Made by a program: the position numbers and the translations under genes
Part shown: piece after piece, positions 25,875 to 50,190 of the stretch
Position numbering within the stretch: position 1 is the first letter of the stretch
How the letters are laid out: every line of letters begins with the position of its first letter
Notes under the pieces: generated by a model
What the model saw: only the letters and a program-made list of their open reading frames with translations
What the model was told of the DNA's origin: nothing
Database searches by the model: none
DNA from: Streptomyces sp. SID13031
Lineage (GTDB): Bacteria > Actinomycetota > Actinomycetes > Propionibacteriales > Kribbellaceae
Direction of reading: 5' to 3'
Assembly (NCBI RefSeq): GCF_010548305.1
Contig: NZ_JAAGLV010000001.1
Location: forward strand, 1 to 64,000
Length of the DNA stretch: 64,000 bases

Positions 25875-27224
25875 TCAGTTGTCGCCGACGGGCTGGTCGG
25901 CGCGCTCGCCCACGGCCGGCGGGAGCGGTCGCGCGGTGACGATCGTGTTCCGCCCGGTCCGCTTCGCGGTGAGCAGCGCGTTGTCGGCGGCCAGGATCAA
26001 CTGGTCCATCGTCGCCGCCACCTCTGGGTAGACCGCGGCACCGAACGACGCCGGTACGCCGGTGATGGTCGTCTTCGACGTCCCCGTCGTACTGACCGAG
26101 ACGGTCAGGGCGGCCAGTCGGTCCCTGATCCGCTCCGCGACCTCCAGCACCTCGGTCTCCGAGGCACCGGGCAGCAGCACGGCCAGCTCGTCGCCGCCTA
26201 CGCGCGCGACCAGGTCACCCTGGCGCACCTCGGCCCGGACGCTCTCACCGACCGCCTTCAGCGCCTGGTCACCCGCCGGGTGCCCGTAGGTGTCGTTGAT
26301 CTCCTTGAACTTGTCCAGGTCGAGCATCAGCAGCCCGACCGTACTGCGCAGCGTCTCGGCGCGGGCGAGCTCCACCGGCACCGCGCTGGCCCAGTACGAC
26401 GAGGTGGCGAGCCCGGTCTTCACATCCGTCGCGGCCGCCCGCTGGTACTGCGGGAGCAGCAGGTCTCGGTGCAGCGCGAGCACGGTCACCATCAGCACGG
26501 GGACGACCCATGGGTATGACGTCTGCATCGCGGCGATCGCCACCCCCAGGCCCAGGCCGGCGCAGACGACCAGTTGGTCGGACAGTTCGCCCAGCGCTTG
26601 GCGGGCGGTCGCCTCCGGGGAGGCGAGCAGGATCGCGCCGATCACGAGCGCGTAGTTGACCAGCCACCAGGTCGCCGCGGCGGCGATCACGACGAGCAGG
26701 GACCAGAGGCCTGTCGGTACGCGCGGCTCGGTGAGCAGGCCGCCGGCGCGCAGTACGGCAGCAGTAGCGGCGCTGGCCAGGACGTAGGTGGCCGTGGAGA
26801 AGATCTTGCGGTGGGCAACTGTCCGTCCGTACACGCGGAACCACGAGTACAGGTACGACATGACGATCAGCGGGATCACCAGGGACAGCGGCAGGAGCAG
26901 CAGGCTGGCGAAGACCCACAGGCACTTCAGGTTCGTGTGGGGCGAGGTGTTGGCGGCCATCTCCCGGCGCCGCTCGATCCCGCGGGCCGACTCCAGGTGC
27001 AGCGTCGAGGCGACGGCCAGGACGGCGAACGCGGCCCACTCCGAGGAGCTGACGCCGGCGTTGGGTCCGGTCAGTGTCGAGCGCACGGCCAGTGTGGTAA
27101 TTGTGACCGCGATCAAATCAATCGCAATCACATATCCGAGCGCCGCGGGCGGTAACGACCAGAGCTTCCATTGCCGGGGTGGCACGAAGGCACTCCGACC
27201 GATCAGAATCATCATGAGCCTCAC
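25875..27224 (-). CDS. Membrane-bound GGDEF diguanylate cyclase (degenerate GGDEL)
   Basis: A 449-residue protein. The N-terminal 250 residues contain about seven hydrophobic helices (for example LPPAALGYVIAIDLIAVTI, LLLLPLSLVIPLIVMSYLY). The C-terminal GGDEF domain has DLDKFKEINDTYGHPAGDQAL and an active-site loop reading GGDEL instead of GGDEF/GGEEF. An RQGD inhibitory-site motif lies five residues before it. Diguanylate cyclases make c-di-GMP from two GTP; the last loop residue is tolerant, so activity remains possible. The GTG at 27224 is taken because an AGG lies upstream; the ATG at 27215 is an alternative. It is divergent from the GNDWF peptide gene. Confidence 0.88.
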   Translation of the reverse strand: MRLMMILIGRSAFVPPRQWKLWSLPPAALGYVIAIDLIAVTITTLAVRSTLTGPNAGVSSSEWAAFAVLAVASTLHLESARGIERRREMAANTSPHTNLKCLWVFASLLLLPLSLVIPLIVMSYLYSWFRVYGRTVAHRKIFSTATYVLASAATAAVLRAGGLLTEPRVPTGLWSLLVVIAAAATWWLVNYALVIGAILLASPEATARQALGELSDQLVVCAGLGLGVAIAAMQTSYPWVVPVLMVTVLALHRDLLLPQYQRAAATDVKTGLATSSYWASAVPVELARAETLRSTVGLLMLDLDKFKEINDTYGHPAGDQALKAVGESVRAEVRQGDLVARVGGDELAVLLPGASETEVLEVAERIRDRLAALTVSVSTTGTSKTTITGVPASFGAAVYPEVAATMDQLILAADNALLTAKRTGRNTIVTARPLPPAVGERADQPVGDN

Positions 27225-27334
27225 ACAAGTCGACCTGAGCGGTTATGCGTACATCGTAACGGCCTGTTCACGTCAGGTCACCCCTGTGTCCGGATTCATT
27301 GAACGGACGAAACCTCCATCGAAGGGTCGAGATC

Positions 27335-27520
27335 ATGAGCAAGGCAGCGCGTCAGACCAGTACCGGCAACGACTGGTTCAGCGGCGGCAACGACTGGTTC
27401 CACGGGGGAAATGACTGGTTCACGGGCGGTAACGACTGGTTCACCGGGGGTGGGAACGACTGGTTCACCGGTGGCAACGACTGGTTCGTCCCGGCCGCCG
27501 GCGGCGGTAACGACTGGTGA
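27335..27520 (+). CDS. GNDWF tandem-repeat peptide, possible RiPP-like precursor
   Basis: A 61-residue protein that begins with about 10 ordinary residues (MSKAARQTST) and then consists of seven GNDW units, six followed by Phe, joined by SG, HG, TG, TGG or VPAAGG spacers, and ends at the last GNDW. The ATG at 27335 has a GAAGGG site at ideal spacing, so translation is likely; an in-frame start at 27299 lacks one. Across the repeats all four Gly codons and both Asn codons are used, yet the residues are unchanged, which points to selection on the peptide. Such leader-plus-repeated-core layout is known from multi-core RiPP precursors. No maturase gene is adjacent; a GGDEF gene diverges upstream and an MFS exporter converges downstream. 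Unrecognised family. Confidence 0.75.
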   Translation: MSKAARQTSTGNDWFSGGNDWFHGGNDWFTGGNDWFTGGGNDWFTGGNDWFVPAAGGGNDW

Positions 27521-27525
27521 CGAAA

Positions 27526-27545
27526 AGTAAATCTTTACTCTTCCT
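27526..27545. terminator. Weak AT-rich hairpin after the GNDWF gene
   Basis: AGTAAA (27526-27531) and TTTACT (27534-27539) form a short hairpin followed by CTTCCTTT, just after the stop codon. The region is unusually AT-rich for this sequence and could terminate either converging transcript. Confidence 0.35.
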
Positions 27546-27592
27546 TTACGGTTGGCCGGGCTGATTTCCCGGCCGAGCTTTCAGGATTCGAT

Positions 27593-28849
27593 TTACCGGG
27601 ACTTTACGGACCCGACCGGAATTCGGCGGGCGCGCCGCCAGGCAGCGCCCGCCGCGACCGCCACCAATGCGCCGGCAGCGCCCATGACGGCCAATGCCAG
27701 CGATGGTTTGAATCGCTCGGCCAGCACCCCGGCGAGCAGGATGCCGAGGCCCTGACTGCTCTTCAGCGCCGTACTCGCGACGCCGAACGCCTGGCCCCGC
27801 TGATGGTCGGGCACTGCCTGGACGAAGCTCGCGCTGGCCGGCAGGTGGTAGGCCGAGGCGGCGCCGGACAGCCCCCAGAGCAGCACTGTGATGGGCAAAC
27901 CTGGCTGGAGGGCGCAAAACACCAACGGAACGCAGGCGGCGACGGCCAGCGGCCCCAGGAATCGCATCCGCCGTTCGGGTGACCACAGGGTGATAAGCCA
28001 CATGCCGAGGACGGCGCCGGCGGGCTGGGCGGCCAGCAGTAGCCCGGCTGCCTTCGGCCCGCCACCGATCTCGGCGGCGTAGGGGACCGCCAGGCCCTCC
28101 ACGGTGACGTAGAACCCGGCGACGGTTGCCAGAACCACCAGAGCCCGCAGGCGCGGAGTACGGGCTACTAGGGACGCTCCTGCGACCAGGTCCTTGAAGT
28201 AGCTGCGTCTGGGCTCGTCCTCGGCCGCCTGTGCCTGTGCTGGTGCTGGGCGGCTGCGCACGCCGAAAGCGATGAACGCGGCGGACAGCAGGAAGGTCAC
28301 CGAATCCAGCAATAGGCCACCGGAGGTCCCTACTGCGACCACTACGAGCCCGCCGGTACCGAAGCCGAGCACCTGGCTGAACTGGACGACCATGTCGTTC
28401 GCGGCCTTGCCCAGGACGTAATGGTCGCCTGGCAGTACCACCGGGAGGGTGGCGGCTCGTGCGGCGTTGAACGGGGAGCCGAAGGCCTGCAGCGCGACCA
28501 GCAGCAGGATGACCGCCAGCAGCGGCAACGCGTTGATCGCCATCGCGGCTACCAGTACTGCCCGCGCCAGGTCCGTGACGATCATTACGCGGCGCCGCGG
28601 GTAGCGGTCGGCGAACCCGGCCAGCAGCGGCCCGAAGACCAGATCGGGAACGTAGGTGAGGGCGTAGGTGAGCGCGGTCAGGCCGGCCGACTGGGTTCGA
28701 TCGAACACCAGCACGGACAGCGCGACCCGGGCGAGCTGGTCGCCGATCACAGACAGCACACCGGCCATGAACAGAGCGCGGAACTCGGCATGCCCGAAGA
28801 CATCCCGCCAGCGCGCTTTCGCCACCACTCCCACCATGTCGGAGACCAT
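27593..28849 (-). CDS. MFS transporter (drug-efflux type)
   Basis: A 418-residue inner-membrane protein with 12 predicted helices. The DRYPRRRVMIVTDLARAVLV segment after helix 2-3 is the MFS-3/enterobactin-exporter-like signature, and SPERRMRFLGPLAVA marks the matching loop of the second half. The start at 28849 (MVSDMVGVV) is chosen over longer frames into the intergenic region; the Met at 28837 is possible. Members export small hydrophobic compounds or peptides. It ends 72 bases from the GNDWF peptide gene on the opposite strand, so any link between them is only positional. Confidence 0.88.
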   Translation of the reverse strand: MVSDMVGVVAKARWRDVFGHAEFRALFMAGVLSVIGDQLARVALSVLVFDRTQSAGLTALTYALTYVPDLVFGPLLAGFADRYPRRRVMIVTDLARAVLVAAMAINALPLLAVILLLVALQAFGSPFNAARAATLPVVLPGDHYVLGKAANDMVVQFSQVLGFGTGGLVVVAVGTSGGLLLDSVTFLLSAAFIAFGVRSRPAPAQAQAAEDEPRRSYFKDLVAGASLVARTPRLRALVVLATVAGFYVTVEGLAVPYAAEIGGGPKAAGLLLAAQPAGAVLGMWLITLWSPERRMRFLGPLAVAACVPLVFCALQPGLPITVLLWGLSGAASAYHLPASASFVQAVPDHQRGQAFGVASTALKSSQGLGILLAGVLAERFKPSLALAVMGAAGALVAVAAGAAWRRARRIPVGSVKSR

Positions 28850-29350
28850 AACCACTATCCGTGGCCTGACACCTCCAGCCCGTGATACCGAGGGTTTCCC
28901 TGCACGGGGGATCAGCGCCGGTGTGATCGATCGCACGGTGGTTGGTCAGTACCAGCAATGGCACTGGTGTGCTGCATACAAGGGTTTGAAGGGGCAAATC
29001 AGTGCCAAAAGTGGCAACCGGTGAGGCGTCGCTTGTCCGACGCCTCTATCCTGGAGTTGTCTGGTACCGGGGTCTGGGCGGGGCGGCCCCGACCCTGGTG
29101 CCGGACTTCTTTTGCGCCCGGGCAATCTGCCCCGGCGGCCTACCGGATCGACGGCCGAACTGACCGGCTGGATCTGTAGCGAAACTGTCGGTGGGGCCCG
29201 GTAGCGTTCTTCTTGCCAGGGGCGGCTCCTGGGCGTGCTTCCTTCTCCTTCACCAAGGCATGTAGCGCGTCCGCTCCCCGCCCCTGGCAGCTCTGTCCAT
29301 GACGGCTTTCGCCCGCGCGCCGGGCAGCTGTCGCCTTCGGGGAGGCCGCG
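28850..29350. other. 501-bp intergenic region with one strong hairpin
   Basis: No convincing gene is seen; small frames here lack ribosome sites and recognisable sequence. A perfect hairpin (29023-29046) lies inside. The region separates the divergent MFS and RING-TerD genes, so promoters for both are expected, but no clear -10/-35 pair stands out. Confidence 0.6.
29023..29046. terminator. 9-bp perfect hairpin in the divergent intergenic region
   Basis: GAGGCGTCG and CGACGCCTC pair perfectly around a CTTGTC loop. It lies about 300 bases upstream of the RING-TerD gene and 170 bases from the MFS start. It could be an intrinsic terminator or a leader element. Confidence 0.45.
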
Positions 29351-47076: not shown

Positions 47077-48339
47077 TCAGGCGAGCCTGAGCTGTGGGCG
47101 GTGATCGCTGCCGGCCTTCAAAATCTCCACGAGCACAGGCTCGGGAAGATGCAGCTCATCAGCCAGCTGGTCCGACCCGAAGCCAGACTTCTCCAACAAC
47201 TCAAACGTGAGCTGCAGCAAGGTCGGTGCCTCGATCGCCGTCAGCGGCCCTGGCTCCGGAAACCCCCACTCGTTGAGCTGTTGCATGCCCCGTCGATACG
47301 CATTGGGCGTCAGCACACCAAGGTGATGCGCCCGATAGACGAGCGCCTTCAACGAGACACCCCACCGCTGCTTGAGATGATGCAGCTTCTCCCAATCAAG
47401 CCGCCGGGGGAGCTCCTCGACGATCTCGTCCGCCGGCATCAGGAACTCCGCCGCAAACGAGTCCGCCTCCTTCTCCACGATCCGCGACCCCGGCGCGGCA
47501 TCGAAATGCATCACCAGATGAGCAAGCTCGTGCGCCGAATCAAACCGCGCGCGGGCAGCATCAGCCTTAGCCGGATTGAGCAGCACGACCGGCCGAGTAG
47601 GCAGATGCGCCGAGAACGCATCGACCGATTGCGAGATCTCCGGCAGGCGCAGTACCAGAACCCCCGCCGCCTCGAGCATCCTGACGACGTGCGGCACAGG
47701 TCCGGCCCTGAGCTCGAAATGCGCGCGGGCCTCGGCCGCCAACTTCGCGATGTCCGCAAGATCAGGAGCCTCCGGCGCCCGCAGATCAGGCAGCAACAGA
47801 TGCGGCAACTCAACATGCTGCTCAAGAGCAGTCAGTACATCGGCCGCCAACTCGGCGAACGCAAGCGCCCGATCCCGCTGAAGCTGACTAGTCGTCCGCA
47901 GACTCCTGAAATGCGGACTCGAAGCCGACCCCGGCTGCAACGACCGCCCCAACGTGAAGAACTCACCCGGCACCCCGAGCGCCAACGCCATCGCCGCTAC
48001 CAACGGCAAAGTGGGCCTCGTCTGCCCGCGCTCGAACTGACTGACCGCCGCCGGAGTAACCCGAATCAGATCAGCCAACTCAGTACGCCGAAGCCCCCTG
48101 AGCCGCCGAGCCAACGCAAGCCGAAGCGGATCAAACCGCACCGCAACCCCCACGGCTCGCCGCTCCTTCGCACCCGACTCGACGCGCACAGCAACCTTCG
48201 CGGTGCGGCGCTCCGCAGGATCTGACTCGAGGCGTACGGCGACATCCGCGGACGGGCGACCCTCAGGATCCGGGTCGAGGCGTGCGGCAGTGTCCTCGGA
48301 CCGGGATTTCTTCGGGTCCGAGGTTGGCTCAGGCGCCAT
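47077..48339 (-). CDS. XRE-type HTH regulator with ImmA/IrrE metallopeptidase domain and N-terminal repeats
   Basis: A 420-residue protein. Residues about 14-77 consist of four 16-residue units of similar pattern (…VAVRLESDPAERR…), the last leading into the usual family start VAVRFDPLRLALARR. The HTH follows (RTELADLIRVTPAAVSQFERGQTRP). The C-terminal half is an ImmA/IrrE metallopeptidase with HELAH at about residue 268 and EKEADSFAAEFLMP as the third ligand. Such proteins cleave cognate repressors or act as stress sensors. The ATG at 48339 is used; it overlaps the upstream partner gene by 11 bp. Confidence 0.9.
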   Translation of the reverse strand: MAPEPTSDPKKSRSEDTAARLDPDPEGRPSADVAVRLESDPAERRTAKVAVRVESGAKERRAVGVAVRFDPLRLALARRLRGLRRTELADLIRVTPAAVSQFERGQTRPTLPLVAAMALALGVPGEFFTLGRSLQPGSASSPHFRSLRTTSQLQRDRALAFAELAADVLTALEQHVELPHLLLPDLRAPEAPDLADIAKLAAEARAHFELRAGPVPHVVRMLEAAGVLVLRLPEISQSVDAFSAHLPTRPVVLLNPAKADAARARFDSAHELAHLVMHFDAAPGSRIVEKEADSFAAEFLMPADEIVEELPRRLDWEKLHHLKQRWGVSLKALVYRAHHLGVLTPNAYRRGMQQLNEWGFPEPGPLTAIEAPTLLQLTFELLEKSGFGSDQLADELHLPEPVLVEILKAGSDHRPQLRLA

Positions 48340-49027
48340 CGTTTCCGGCCGCCTGCTGCTCGGTACCACGGAGACGGACGGCGATCGGCGGTACCGGACG
48401 TTGGTCGAACCGGTCAGCGTCGTACCCAACCGCCGGCACGATGGGGAGCTGATCACCGGGCAGATCCCGATGCACCAACTGCACAGCGAACCACGGCCCG
48501 GCGCCATCCTTGGTGTCCCGCGGAAAGCCCAGGTGCGCGGCAACTTCGCCCGTCTCGGCGTCACCAGCCCAGGCGAGATGCAGATACCGCGGCGACCCCG
48601 ACGCCGCGTTCGCCGCCAACTCGACATCCGGCGACTCGAACCCTTCGAACAGCTGGAGCTGTTGGCTGTTCGCCGCCGGCCCCTGATGCCTGGTCGCGGA
48701 GGAGTCCCAGTCGATGGAGTACGGGTCCGCAAGTACGGTCTTCCCCGGCAACTTCGAGGCGCGTAGTACCCGCCCGAGATGGACAACCCGCAGCGAGTTG
48801 CCCTGCAGATCGGCGAGCACGTCCCTGCGTTGAGCAAACTCCTGGACGGTCCTGTTCGCGTAGTTGCGCGCCGACCCCATCCCCAGCGTCACGGCATCAT
48901 CGCCGAGCGCCGGTTCGTGCCGATCGAGGTTGGTACGCCAGACGTCGCGCAGCAACCCGATCAGCTCGGGCAGCACACCACTGGCAGTCCAGTCGGACGC
49001 CACCTCAGCGAGCAGCTCTTCATGCAT
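48329..49027 (-). CDS. Partner protein of the XRE-ImmA regulator, unknown function
   Basis: A 232-residue soluble protein starting MHEELLAEVASDWTASGVLPELIGLLRD. The C-terminal part has an Asp/Pro-rich stretch (WAGDAETGEVAAHLGFPRDTKDGAGPWF). No recognised domain. Upstream TATAAC lies 7 bases before the ATG, which would give a leaderless mRNA; the -35 is unclear. It is translationally coupled to the XRE-ImmA gene, so it may be its target, antitoxin or co-sensor. Confidence 0.72.
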   Translation of the reverse strand: MHEELLAEVASDWTASGVLPELIGLLRDVWRTNLDRHEPALGDDAVTLGMGSARNYANRTVQEFAQRRDVLADLQGNSLRVVHLGRVLRASKLPGKTVLADPYSIDWDSSATRHQGPAANSQQLQLFEGFESPDVELAANAASGSPRYLHLAWAGDAETGEVAAHLGFPRDTKDGAGPWFAVQLVHRDLPGDQLPIVPAVGYDADRFDQRPVPPIAVRLRGTEQQAAGNDGA

Positions 49028-49119: not shown

Positions 49120-50013
49120 TCAGTACTTCCCGTAGACCTGGACTTTCGTACCGATCGGGGTCTCGGCGAAGATCTCGTGGATCTGTGGGCGCATGACTCG
49201 GACGCAGCGATGGCTGGCCGGGTAGGTCTTGATCAACGAGTTGACCCGGCTGCCGTGCAGTGCGATCCCCGGCCGGTCCTTGAGGAAGTAGATCGAGTCA
49301 TACATGTACGCGTCGTCATACAGGCTGCTCTCATGCGCCCCGGCCCACTTGCGCCAGACCGTACCGGTGCGGTTGGGCGTCTCGTACCCCGGCCCGCCGG
49401 TGGACACCCAGACGATCCGGCGAATCTCCTTGCCGACGATCTGGTAGAGCACCAGGCAGGTCTTGTTGACATAGATCCCCGGCGCCTTGTTCGCTGCCGG
49501 CCGCTTAGTTGCCGTCAGCACCGATCGCACATCCTCAGCAGTCAGCCCACCGCGACTGACGGGCATCCCATTCGTCTCCCGCCACGCACACAACGCCTGC
49601 TTGGCCCGCTTGGTGATGTCACCGTCGACATCTCCCACGGGATACCCAAGTGCATCGAGCTTGGCCTCCACCTGCTTCGCGTACGCCGCCACGGGCCGCG
49701 GCTTCGGCCTGACCGTCGGCTTCACGGTCGGAGTCGCGGTCGGCGCCGACGTGGGCTGGCCGGTCGGCGTACCCGGCGTACCCGGAGTACTGGGCGTGCC
49801 CGAAGTACTCGGTGTGCTTGACGTGCTGGGCGTACTCGAGGTGCTCGGCGTGCCGCTAGGCGTGGTACTGGGTTCCGCCGTCGGGCTACTGGACGACGGC
49901 GCGGAAGCGCTCGGCGTACCGGAAGAACCCGAATCGGCCGCCACATCCGCGCATCCCGTCAACGTGATGGCAAGCAGGGCGGTACAAGCAACGAGACCAC
50001 GTCCTCGAGACAC
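49120..50013 (-). CDS. L,D-transpeptidase lipoprotein with peptidoglycan-binding domain
   Basis: A 297-residue exported protein. The signal ends LTGC (Cys about residue 20), so it is a probable lipoprotein. A long Ser/Thr/Pro linker of TPST-like repeats follows (about 30-105), then a PG-binding-1 domain (AKQVEAKLDALGYPVGDVDG), then a YkuD catalytic domain with HGSRVNSL and SHRCVRV, where Cys is the nucleophile. It would make 3-3 cross-links in the cell wall. The GTG at 50013 is preferred (AAGGGG upstream) to the GTG at 50034. Confidence 0.93.
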   Translation of the reverse strand: MSRGRGLVACTALLAITLTGCADVAADSGSSGTPSASAPSSSSPTAEPSTTPSGTPSTSSTPSTSSTPSTSGTPSTPGTPGTPTGQPTSAPTATPTVKPTVRPKPRPVAAYAKQVEAKLDALGYPVGDVDGDITKRAKQALCAWRETNGMPVSRGGLTAEDVRSVLTATKRPAANKAPGIYVNKTCLVLYQIVGKEIRRIVWVSTGGPGYETPNRTGTVWRKWAGAHESSLYDDAYMYDSIYFLKDRPGIALHGSRVNSLIKTYPASHRCVRVMRPQIHEIFAETPIGTKVQVYGKY

Positions 50014-50190
50014 GATTCCCCTTTCCGTCGGCACTTCTCAGACTCGCAGAGGGGCAGCGCCATCAGCCGAAGACCCGCCGTACGCAACCGCCGCCCGCCG
50101 AGGCTAGTACCAACACCGGTTCCCGCACTCACCCTTCCCCACACCCGTCACCGAACCGTTGCCATCGGCCTCATCCCGCTCCCACAACCA

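Follow-up and report, generated by a model that had tools for sequence, protein, structure and literature searches.

The locus analysed here raises one question: what does a small gene do that encodes the same short peptide unit seven times? It lies in the window, by which we mean the whole stretch of DNA under analysis, 64,000 nucleotides from Streptomyces sp. SID13031 (Kribbellaceae in GTDB). The initial annotation described a 61-residue peptide with seven GNDW units after a short head, and considered an unknown multi-core RiPP or a repeat protein. The reading frame was confirmed on the forward strand, from the ATG at 27335 to the TGA at 27518–27520, and its product is MSKAARQTSTGNDWFSGGNDWFHGGNDWFTGGNDWFTGGGNDWFTGGNDWFVPAAGGGNDW. 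Tryptophan occupies positions 14, 21, 28, 35, 43, 50 and 61; the period is about seven residues, and most GNDW units are spaced by seven. At most two GNDW units were obtained in 20,000 composition-preserving residue shuffles, compared with the seven in the peptide. The peptide is without a signal sequence. The described codon variety was found again, with GGC, GGT, GGA and GGG for glycine and AAC and AAT for asparagine among the units, as was the ribosome site, GAAGGG at 8 nt upstream of the ATG. The features of the locus are listed in Table 1.

Table 1. Features at the repeat peptide locus, in window coordinates.
Feature	Position	Strand	Remarks
GNDW repeat peptide gene	27335..27520	+	ten-residue head, then seven GNDW(F) units
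Shine-Dalgarno-like GAAGGGT	27321..27327	+	7-8 nt 5' of the peptide gene ATG
TCTTTAC-N5-CTTTACG element	27532..27550	not assigned	directly 3' of the stop codon, kept across orthologous repeat loci
Membrane GGDEF diguanylate cyclase (predicted)	25875..27212	-	divergent from the peptide gene; GGDEL active site, I-site RQGD
MFS transporter (MFS_1/MFS_3; TIGR00900-like)	27593..28936	-	convergent with the peptide gene; homologues at most paralogous modules
Candidate promoter of the GGDEF gene, TGACCT-16 nt-TACGAT	27253..27280	-	conserved intergenic element, read by eye

A first search of 58 genomes detected homologues in 35 of 36 other genomes of the same genus and in none of 21 genomes from other genera of the order. 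A profile search matched 37 of 38 Kribbella genomes, one of these (G028) with a decayed copy, and gave no credible match to the repeat peptide in 394 other genomes of the class; a single hit outside the genus (G100/L079, E 7.5e-4) was dropped, being without an NDW/NEW frame. Homologues with conserved repeats, on whose existence the initial annotation had made its reading depend, are thus kept in 36 of the 38 Kribbella genomes. In the deeply diverged G029 the GGDEF gene is kept, and the peptide and MFS genes are absent. The number of units varies from 2 to 8 among orthologues, and the C-terminus is N[DE]W-stop in all 35 tabulated orthologues except one with DDW-stop. The ribosome site of orthologues is of the AAGGGT or AGGATC type.

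The codon variety had been taken as a sign of selection on the peptide and as an argument against recent expansion of the DNA, and comparison between species agreed. Among twelve alignable orthologues, pN/pS was 0.007 in the 28 GNDW codons (260 synonymous and 11 non-synonymous pairwise differences) and 0.65 in the remaining codons. The distance was 0.049 between species for units in the same register, and 0.091 among different units of one gene, which makes the array an old one that was not recently copied. Some sub-lineages have GNEW, SNDW or TNDW throughout all units of the peptide, which indicates slow concerted change at deeper levels. By every comparative sign, the repeat peptide is translated. 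The element that follows the stop codon is direct-repeat-like and reads TCTTTAC-N5/6-YTTAC across Kribbella orthologues; it is retained even at orthologous loci without the MFS gene, and was not seen at the micro-ORF paralogous loci inspected.

The divergent neighbour of the peptide gene encodes a multi-TM N-terminal domain of about 255 residues followed by a GGDEF domain (Pfam GGDEF, 2.5e-38). The N-terminal membrane domain had no Pfam match, and the AlphaFold model of this cyclase has a pLDDT of 37. The MFS protein gave only weak matches, to SLC37A4, in the PDB. A strict consensus scan for promoters and terminators made no calls, and the candidate promoter of the GGDEF gene was likewise uncalled. 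The statement that no maturase is adjacent proved correct: P450, rSAM, ATP-grasp and YcaO enzymes are absent from the Kribbella module (profiled genes at 24.8–33.0 kb), and none occurs among the families common to the paralogous f23 modules described below. A role as Trp attenuator or leader peptide was rejected because nothing follows the peptide gene at short distance on its strand. The gene order SNF2 helicase, quinone oxidoreductase, GGDEF, peptide, MFS and MXAN_6230-family RING protein is kept genus-wide over about 10 kb. Therefore, linkage at the window locus alone proves little, and the argument rests on paralogous loci.

Other repeats were observed elsewhere in the window. A lipoprotein-like protein, L,D-transpeptidase-type by eye (49120–50034, minus strand), has a Ser/Thr/Pro-rich low-complexity stretch (STPSTSSTPSTSG) that corresponds to a 9-bp tandem repeat at 49764–49851. 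An XRE-type regulator with an ImmA/IrrE-like metallopeptidase domain, again by eye (47077–48837, minus strand), has in-frame 16-residue repeats (VAVRxESxxxERRxAx) upstream, at the tandem repeat 48174–48304, and its N-terminus is possibly over-extended.

Other GGDEF genes of Kribbella, 44–49% identical to that of the window, share its gene arrangement. The gap between each paralogous GGDEF gene and the MFS homologue contains a micro-ORF with a strong Shine-Dalgarno sequence, for example ATG-CGG-AAC-AAC-GAG-TGG-TGA. The encoded peptides have 5–8 residues and include MRNNDWH, MQNNDW, MNNDW (L133), MRNGEWH and MHNEWP. Whole genomes were then scanned with a pattern blind to GGDEF, GGAGG-N3..11-ATG-nnn-AAY-AAY-GAN-TGG. 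It matched 17 sites in 15 of the 38 Kribbella genomes; 395 further genomes of the class gave no match, nor did the reversed control. All 17 sites adjoin a GGDEF homologue, and 16 adjoin an MFS homologue too. The eight paralogues that were found through the GGDEF protein and missed by the pattern all carry a Shine-Dalgarno-led micro-ORF with tryptophan (MRNNNDWG, MRTNDWP, MNNDW, MRNGEWH at three, MRANDWF and MHNEWP). The MHNEWP gene belongs to the window's own genome (contig C47, near 324,600). As background, generic micro-ORFs of this kind were present in 8 of 2086 control windows, and the M[RQ]..W type in none of the 2086.

MRNNDWH and MRANDWF align with one unit (xGGNDWF) of the window peptide, and both equal its period of seven. 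Because scans blind to GGDEF found the micro-ORFs solely at GGDEF loci, the window gene is, as judged from sequence, a fused seven-unit form of the MRxNxW micropeptide family. The term multi-core is borne out only in the sense that the unit recurs. The initial annotation missed this context, which consists of a divergent GGDEF cyclase, a convergent MFS gene and stand-alone heptapeptide relatives.

Homologues of the window GGDEF protein (30–38%) also occur in a second actinobacterial family, f23, and sparsely elsewhere. In f23, the gap between the GGDEF and MFS genes contains tandem arrays of 2–13 separate heptapeptide ORFs, each led by a Shine-Dalgarno sequence. The arrays encode MRDNTWT (4–8 copies), MRDTTWS (5 and 13), MRDNNWN (8), MRGNSWD (2–6), MRANSWD (2–5), MRDNKWSR (3) and MRDVNWT/MRDSNWT (4). 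Distant loci encode MRSVQWA (twice), MRDVHWG, MRNTHWTRA, MSSGVQWV, MSSTQWG and MRGVKWA (twice). The family consensus is M-R-x-N-x-W-x, with peptides of 5–9 residues and genes of 18–27 bp; the array genes are near-identical, 24 bp long and have a ribosome site each. A tandem pattern, also blind to GGDEF, matched 16 of 22 f23 genomes and none of 296 genomes across the phylum, with controls at zero, and all 30 loci fetched lie between GGDEF and MFS genes.

In the arrays, the coding units are better conserved than the spacers. In arrays with at least four copies, identity was 0.955 for the ORFs and 0.648 for the spacers; in L179 and L181 the spacers are only about 33% identical, compared with about 96.5% for the ORFs. 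The tryptophan codon is TGG in 89 of 89 units, the start codons ATG and GTG are interchanged, and synonymous wobble is found in the R, N, D, T and S codons, so that conservation tracks amino acids and not nucleotides. No Rfam family was found at the array loci.

Conserved extra genes at f23 loci were considered as module parts and rejected, since they are confined to one syntenic orthologue group. At nine orthologous f23 loci, and not at paralogous modules, the MFS gene is followed on its far side by a gene for a ThiF-nitroreductase fusion (723 aa; L171, 3078–5250), which resembles Rv1355c of M. tuberculosis, a protein encoded near c-di-GMP enzymes in that species. At L172 (G155:C3, 288000–305500), a partly interrupted second GGDEF copy (query residues 79–428, one internal TAG) is found beside the intact one with its MRDNKWSR array, which suggests local duplication and decay.

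The GG[DE]E[FL] active site and the RxxD inhibitory I-site are kept in all 101 GGDEF homologues examined. With the established enzymology of this family, intact sites mean that the homologues should be active, product-inhibited diguanylate cyclases. A role of the GGDEF protein as a peptide-modifying nucleotidyltransferase, in analogy to MccB, was rejected, as the active and inhibitory sites are all of the ordinary-cyclase type. The tree places the fused-repeat group, the micro-ORF group of Kribbella and the array group of f23 each on one side of a branch. The negative set consisted of GGDEF homologues from other lineages (L075, L076, L201, L161, L163, L165 and L164/L204), and they lack a micro-ORF. 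Tight cyclase clades share a peptide, with five MRGNSWD in one and MQNNDW plus one MNNDW in another, and the modules of one genome differ (MRDNKWSR, MRANSWD and MRDNHWTP in G155). This distribution supports a pairing of peptide and cyclase. It is further supported by G028, where a frameshift splits the GGDEF gene, the MFS gene has been lost and the adjoining peptide has decayed too.

The MFS gene accompanies 24 of 25 micro-ORF modules in Kribbella and 21 of 25 modules in f23. It is missing at L176, L184, L186 and L140 and at Kribbella L054, L059 and L061–L064, and was not found adjoining the distant modules L191–L193. The genomes of L140, L176, L184 and L186 also hold another, MFS-bearing module. 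At the repeat locus, MFS loss was counted in 8 of 21 genomes with a second module and in 0 of 17 without one (Fisher 0.005, a value that ignores relatedness and reflects about four independent losses). The pattern fits an exporter acting in trans, and is only suggestive of it. In the MFS-less clade of L059 and L061–L064 (Kribbella soli clade), only 2–3 units of the shrunken peptide are left, head residues are altered and constraint is relaxed, and this module may be in decay.

Micropeptides that always stand beside a GGDEF cyclase, and usually beside an exporter, point to peptide signalling by a system of a new kind. The peptides exist, are conserved and bear a signature of translation, the module is constant and its catalytic site is intact; from here we infer export, unit release, cyclase binding and the sign of the effect. 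Each micropeptide gene is divergent from that of a membrane diguanylate cyclase of its own, with which it is inherited, and usually convergent with the MFS gene. The MFS protein would export the peptide, as released units or as the whole chain, an activity proposed by analogy. Outside the cell, the peptide would act as an autocrine ligand whose target is the N-terminal membrane domain of its cognate cyclase, and peptide level or cell density would in this way be turned into cyclic di-GMP output. Copy number is raised in two ways, by tandem stand-alone micro-genes in f23 or by heptads fused in one ORF in Kribbella. That an MFS-exported micropeptide is the private autocrine ligand of the neighbouring cyclase's membrane domain is a serious possibility, to which we give somewhat less than an even chance. 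The broader proposal is held with more reserve: the modules might form a new signalling class in which a membrane cyclase, its sensor domain being without a Pfam match, has as its cognate ligand an MRxNxW micropeptide supplied by arrays of up to thirteen 24-bp genes or by a fused ORF, and several private peptide-to-cyclic-di-GMP channels would exist per genome.

The main rival to a ligand is a leaderless RiPP-like product. The micropeptide, or each GNDWF unit, would then be the precursor of a small tryptophan compound, modified in trans or only formylated and processed, and exported by the MFS protein, and the cyclase would merely control its production. Size and the MR start match the smallest precursors, bytA (PMC13417212) and MccA (PMC7680869); several precursor copies would serve a product that is required in quantity; and MFS loss coincides with the shrunken, relaxed peptides of the clade described above. 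However, the four enzyme families named above are missing from the Kribbella module and not common to the paralogous f23 modules, and the cyclase is the constant partner even without the MFS gene, which is unusual for a biosynthetic cluster. We regard such a product as rather unlikely. If it were a natural product, it would stand for a new class of ribosomal products, minimal in size and with gene arrays that serve dosage.

A (formylated) micropeptide might also stay in the cytosol as an intracellular regulator that binds the cyclase or the MFS protein, with the dosage or translation rate of the mini-genes tuning the target and the fused Kribbella chain being multivalent. This would agree with the missing signal peptide, with a cyclase linkage stronger than the MFS linkage and with a Kribbella form that is one chain with each of seven sites conserved. 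It leaves the recurrent MFS partner unexplained, and free heptapeptides are short-lived in the cytosol; we consider it distinctly unlikely. The micro-ORFs are antisense between two co-directional genes in all MFS-bearing modules, and a cis-acting device at the RNA level could be imagined, in which a transcript antisense to the MFS–GGDEF gap carries Shine-Dalgarno-led ORFs for ribosome binding or transcript stability and not for a functional peptide. Against this stand the conservation of amino acids rather than nucleotides (synonymous wobble and the ATG/GTG swap), the lack of an Rfam family and the fused Kribbella form, which has a single Shine-Dalgarno sequence despite seven conserved NDW units, and such a device is improbable. 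A structural or Ca-binding RTX-like repeat protein unrelated to signalling is hardly credible, as its sub-threshold Pfam similarity (E 0.32) is driven by GGND, the repeat is a heptad and not a nonapeptide, and sister loci encode a single unit of 5–8 residues that is unable to form a beta-roll. Pfam and NCBIfam searches with the 61-residue peptide gave RTX matches below threshold only, which were rejected (11.5 bits for the nonapeptide GGxGxDxUx, Pfam cut-off 23), and tblastn against plasmids gave RTX-like low-identity matches only.

Returning to the peptide as a cyclase ligand, it would tell what membrane diguanylate cyclases sense in one whole clade, and would amount to a peptide language for these actinomycetes. 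Gene callers do not see the micro-genes (18–27 bp), although few coding sequences at the same loci are conserved as tightly. The search rule "MR..W beside this GGDEF" makes the idea directly testable. In the open-access literature, these peptide sequences were not found in a relevant sense, nor was Kribbella found paired with GGDEF, and no description was found of tandem arrays of up to 13 near-identical micro-genes with their own ribosome sites. No earlier description of the MRxNxW family was found in this literature either, and its newness rests on the module architecture and the absence of a known counterpart.

The closest known genes in size are those of the biarylitides. Their precursor gene bytA encodes five residues in 18 bp and belongs to what were called the smallest known genes (PMC13417212). 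The likeness lies in an actinobacterial precursor gene on the 18-bp scale that annotation missed, with an aromatic C-terminal half (PMC13417212), and MNNDW of L133 equals the biarylitide precursor in length. In contrast, no cross-linking P450 was found among the profiled genes or the families common to f23 modules. There is no Y-x-H/W aromatic pair and no MxYxH-like pentapeptide, as the positions before the single invariant tryptophan are mostly D/N/G/A/S/T/E, and the partners are GGDEF and MFS genes with tandem arrays.

Microcin C is derived from the heptapeptide MccA (MRTGNAN), and its exporter is MccC. The present modules resemble it in having a ribosomally made free heptapeptide with an MR start, a tiny gene and an exporter gene in the cluster; MccA is formylated (PMC7680869). 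The differences are that the Kribbella module is without an MccB (ThiF-type) adenylating enzyme, a ThiF-nitroreductase occurring at one f23 orthologue group only, that the partner is a diguanylate cyclase, and that the copies are tandem or fused. The C-terminal asparagine of MccA is not a feature of the family, whose peptides end in W or in W plus one to three residues; MRDNNWN and MRDSTWN are the sole members that end in Asn. Together, bytA and MccA show that genes of so small a size are real and that export of such peptides is possible.

On the cyclase side, MASE-type membrane diguanylate cyclases share a multi-TM N-terminus and a canonical GGDEF domain with I-site, whereas the cyclase of the module has a Pfam-unmatched N-terminal domain and a fixed micropeptide neighbour. 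The SHP/Rgg and ComS/ComR pheromones are comparable in that a short exported peptide has a private cognate receptor (PMC7564271). Those systems use longer precursors that are cut, ABC export and cytosolic transcription factors as sensors, whereas here an ORF of 5–8 residues stands beside a membrane cyclase.
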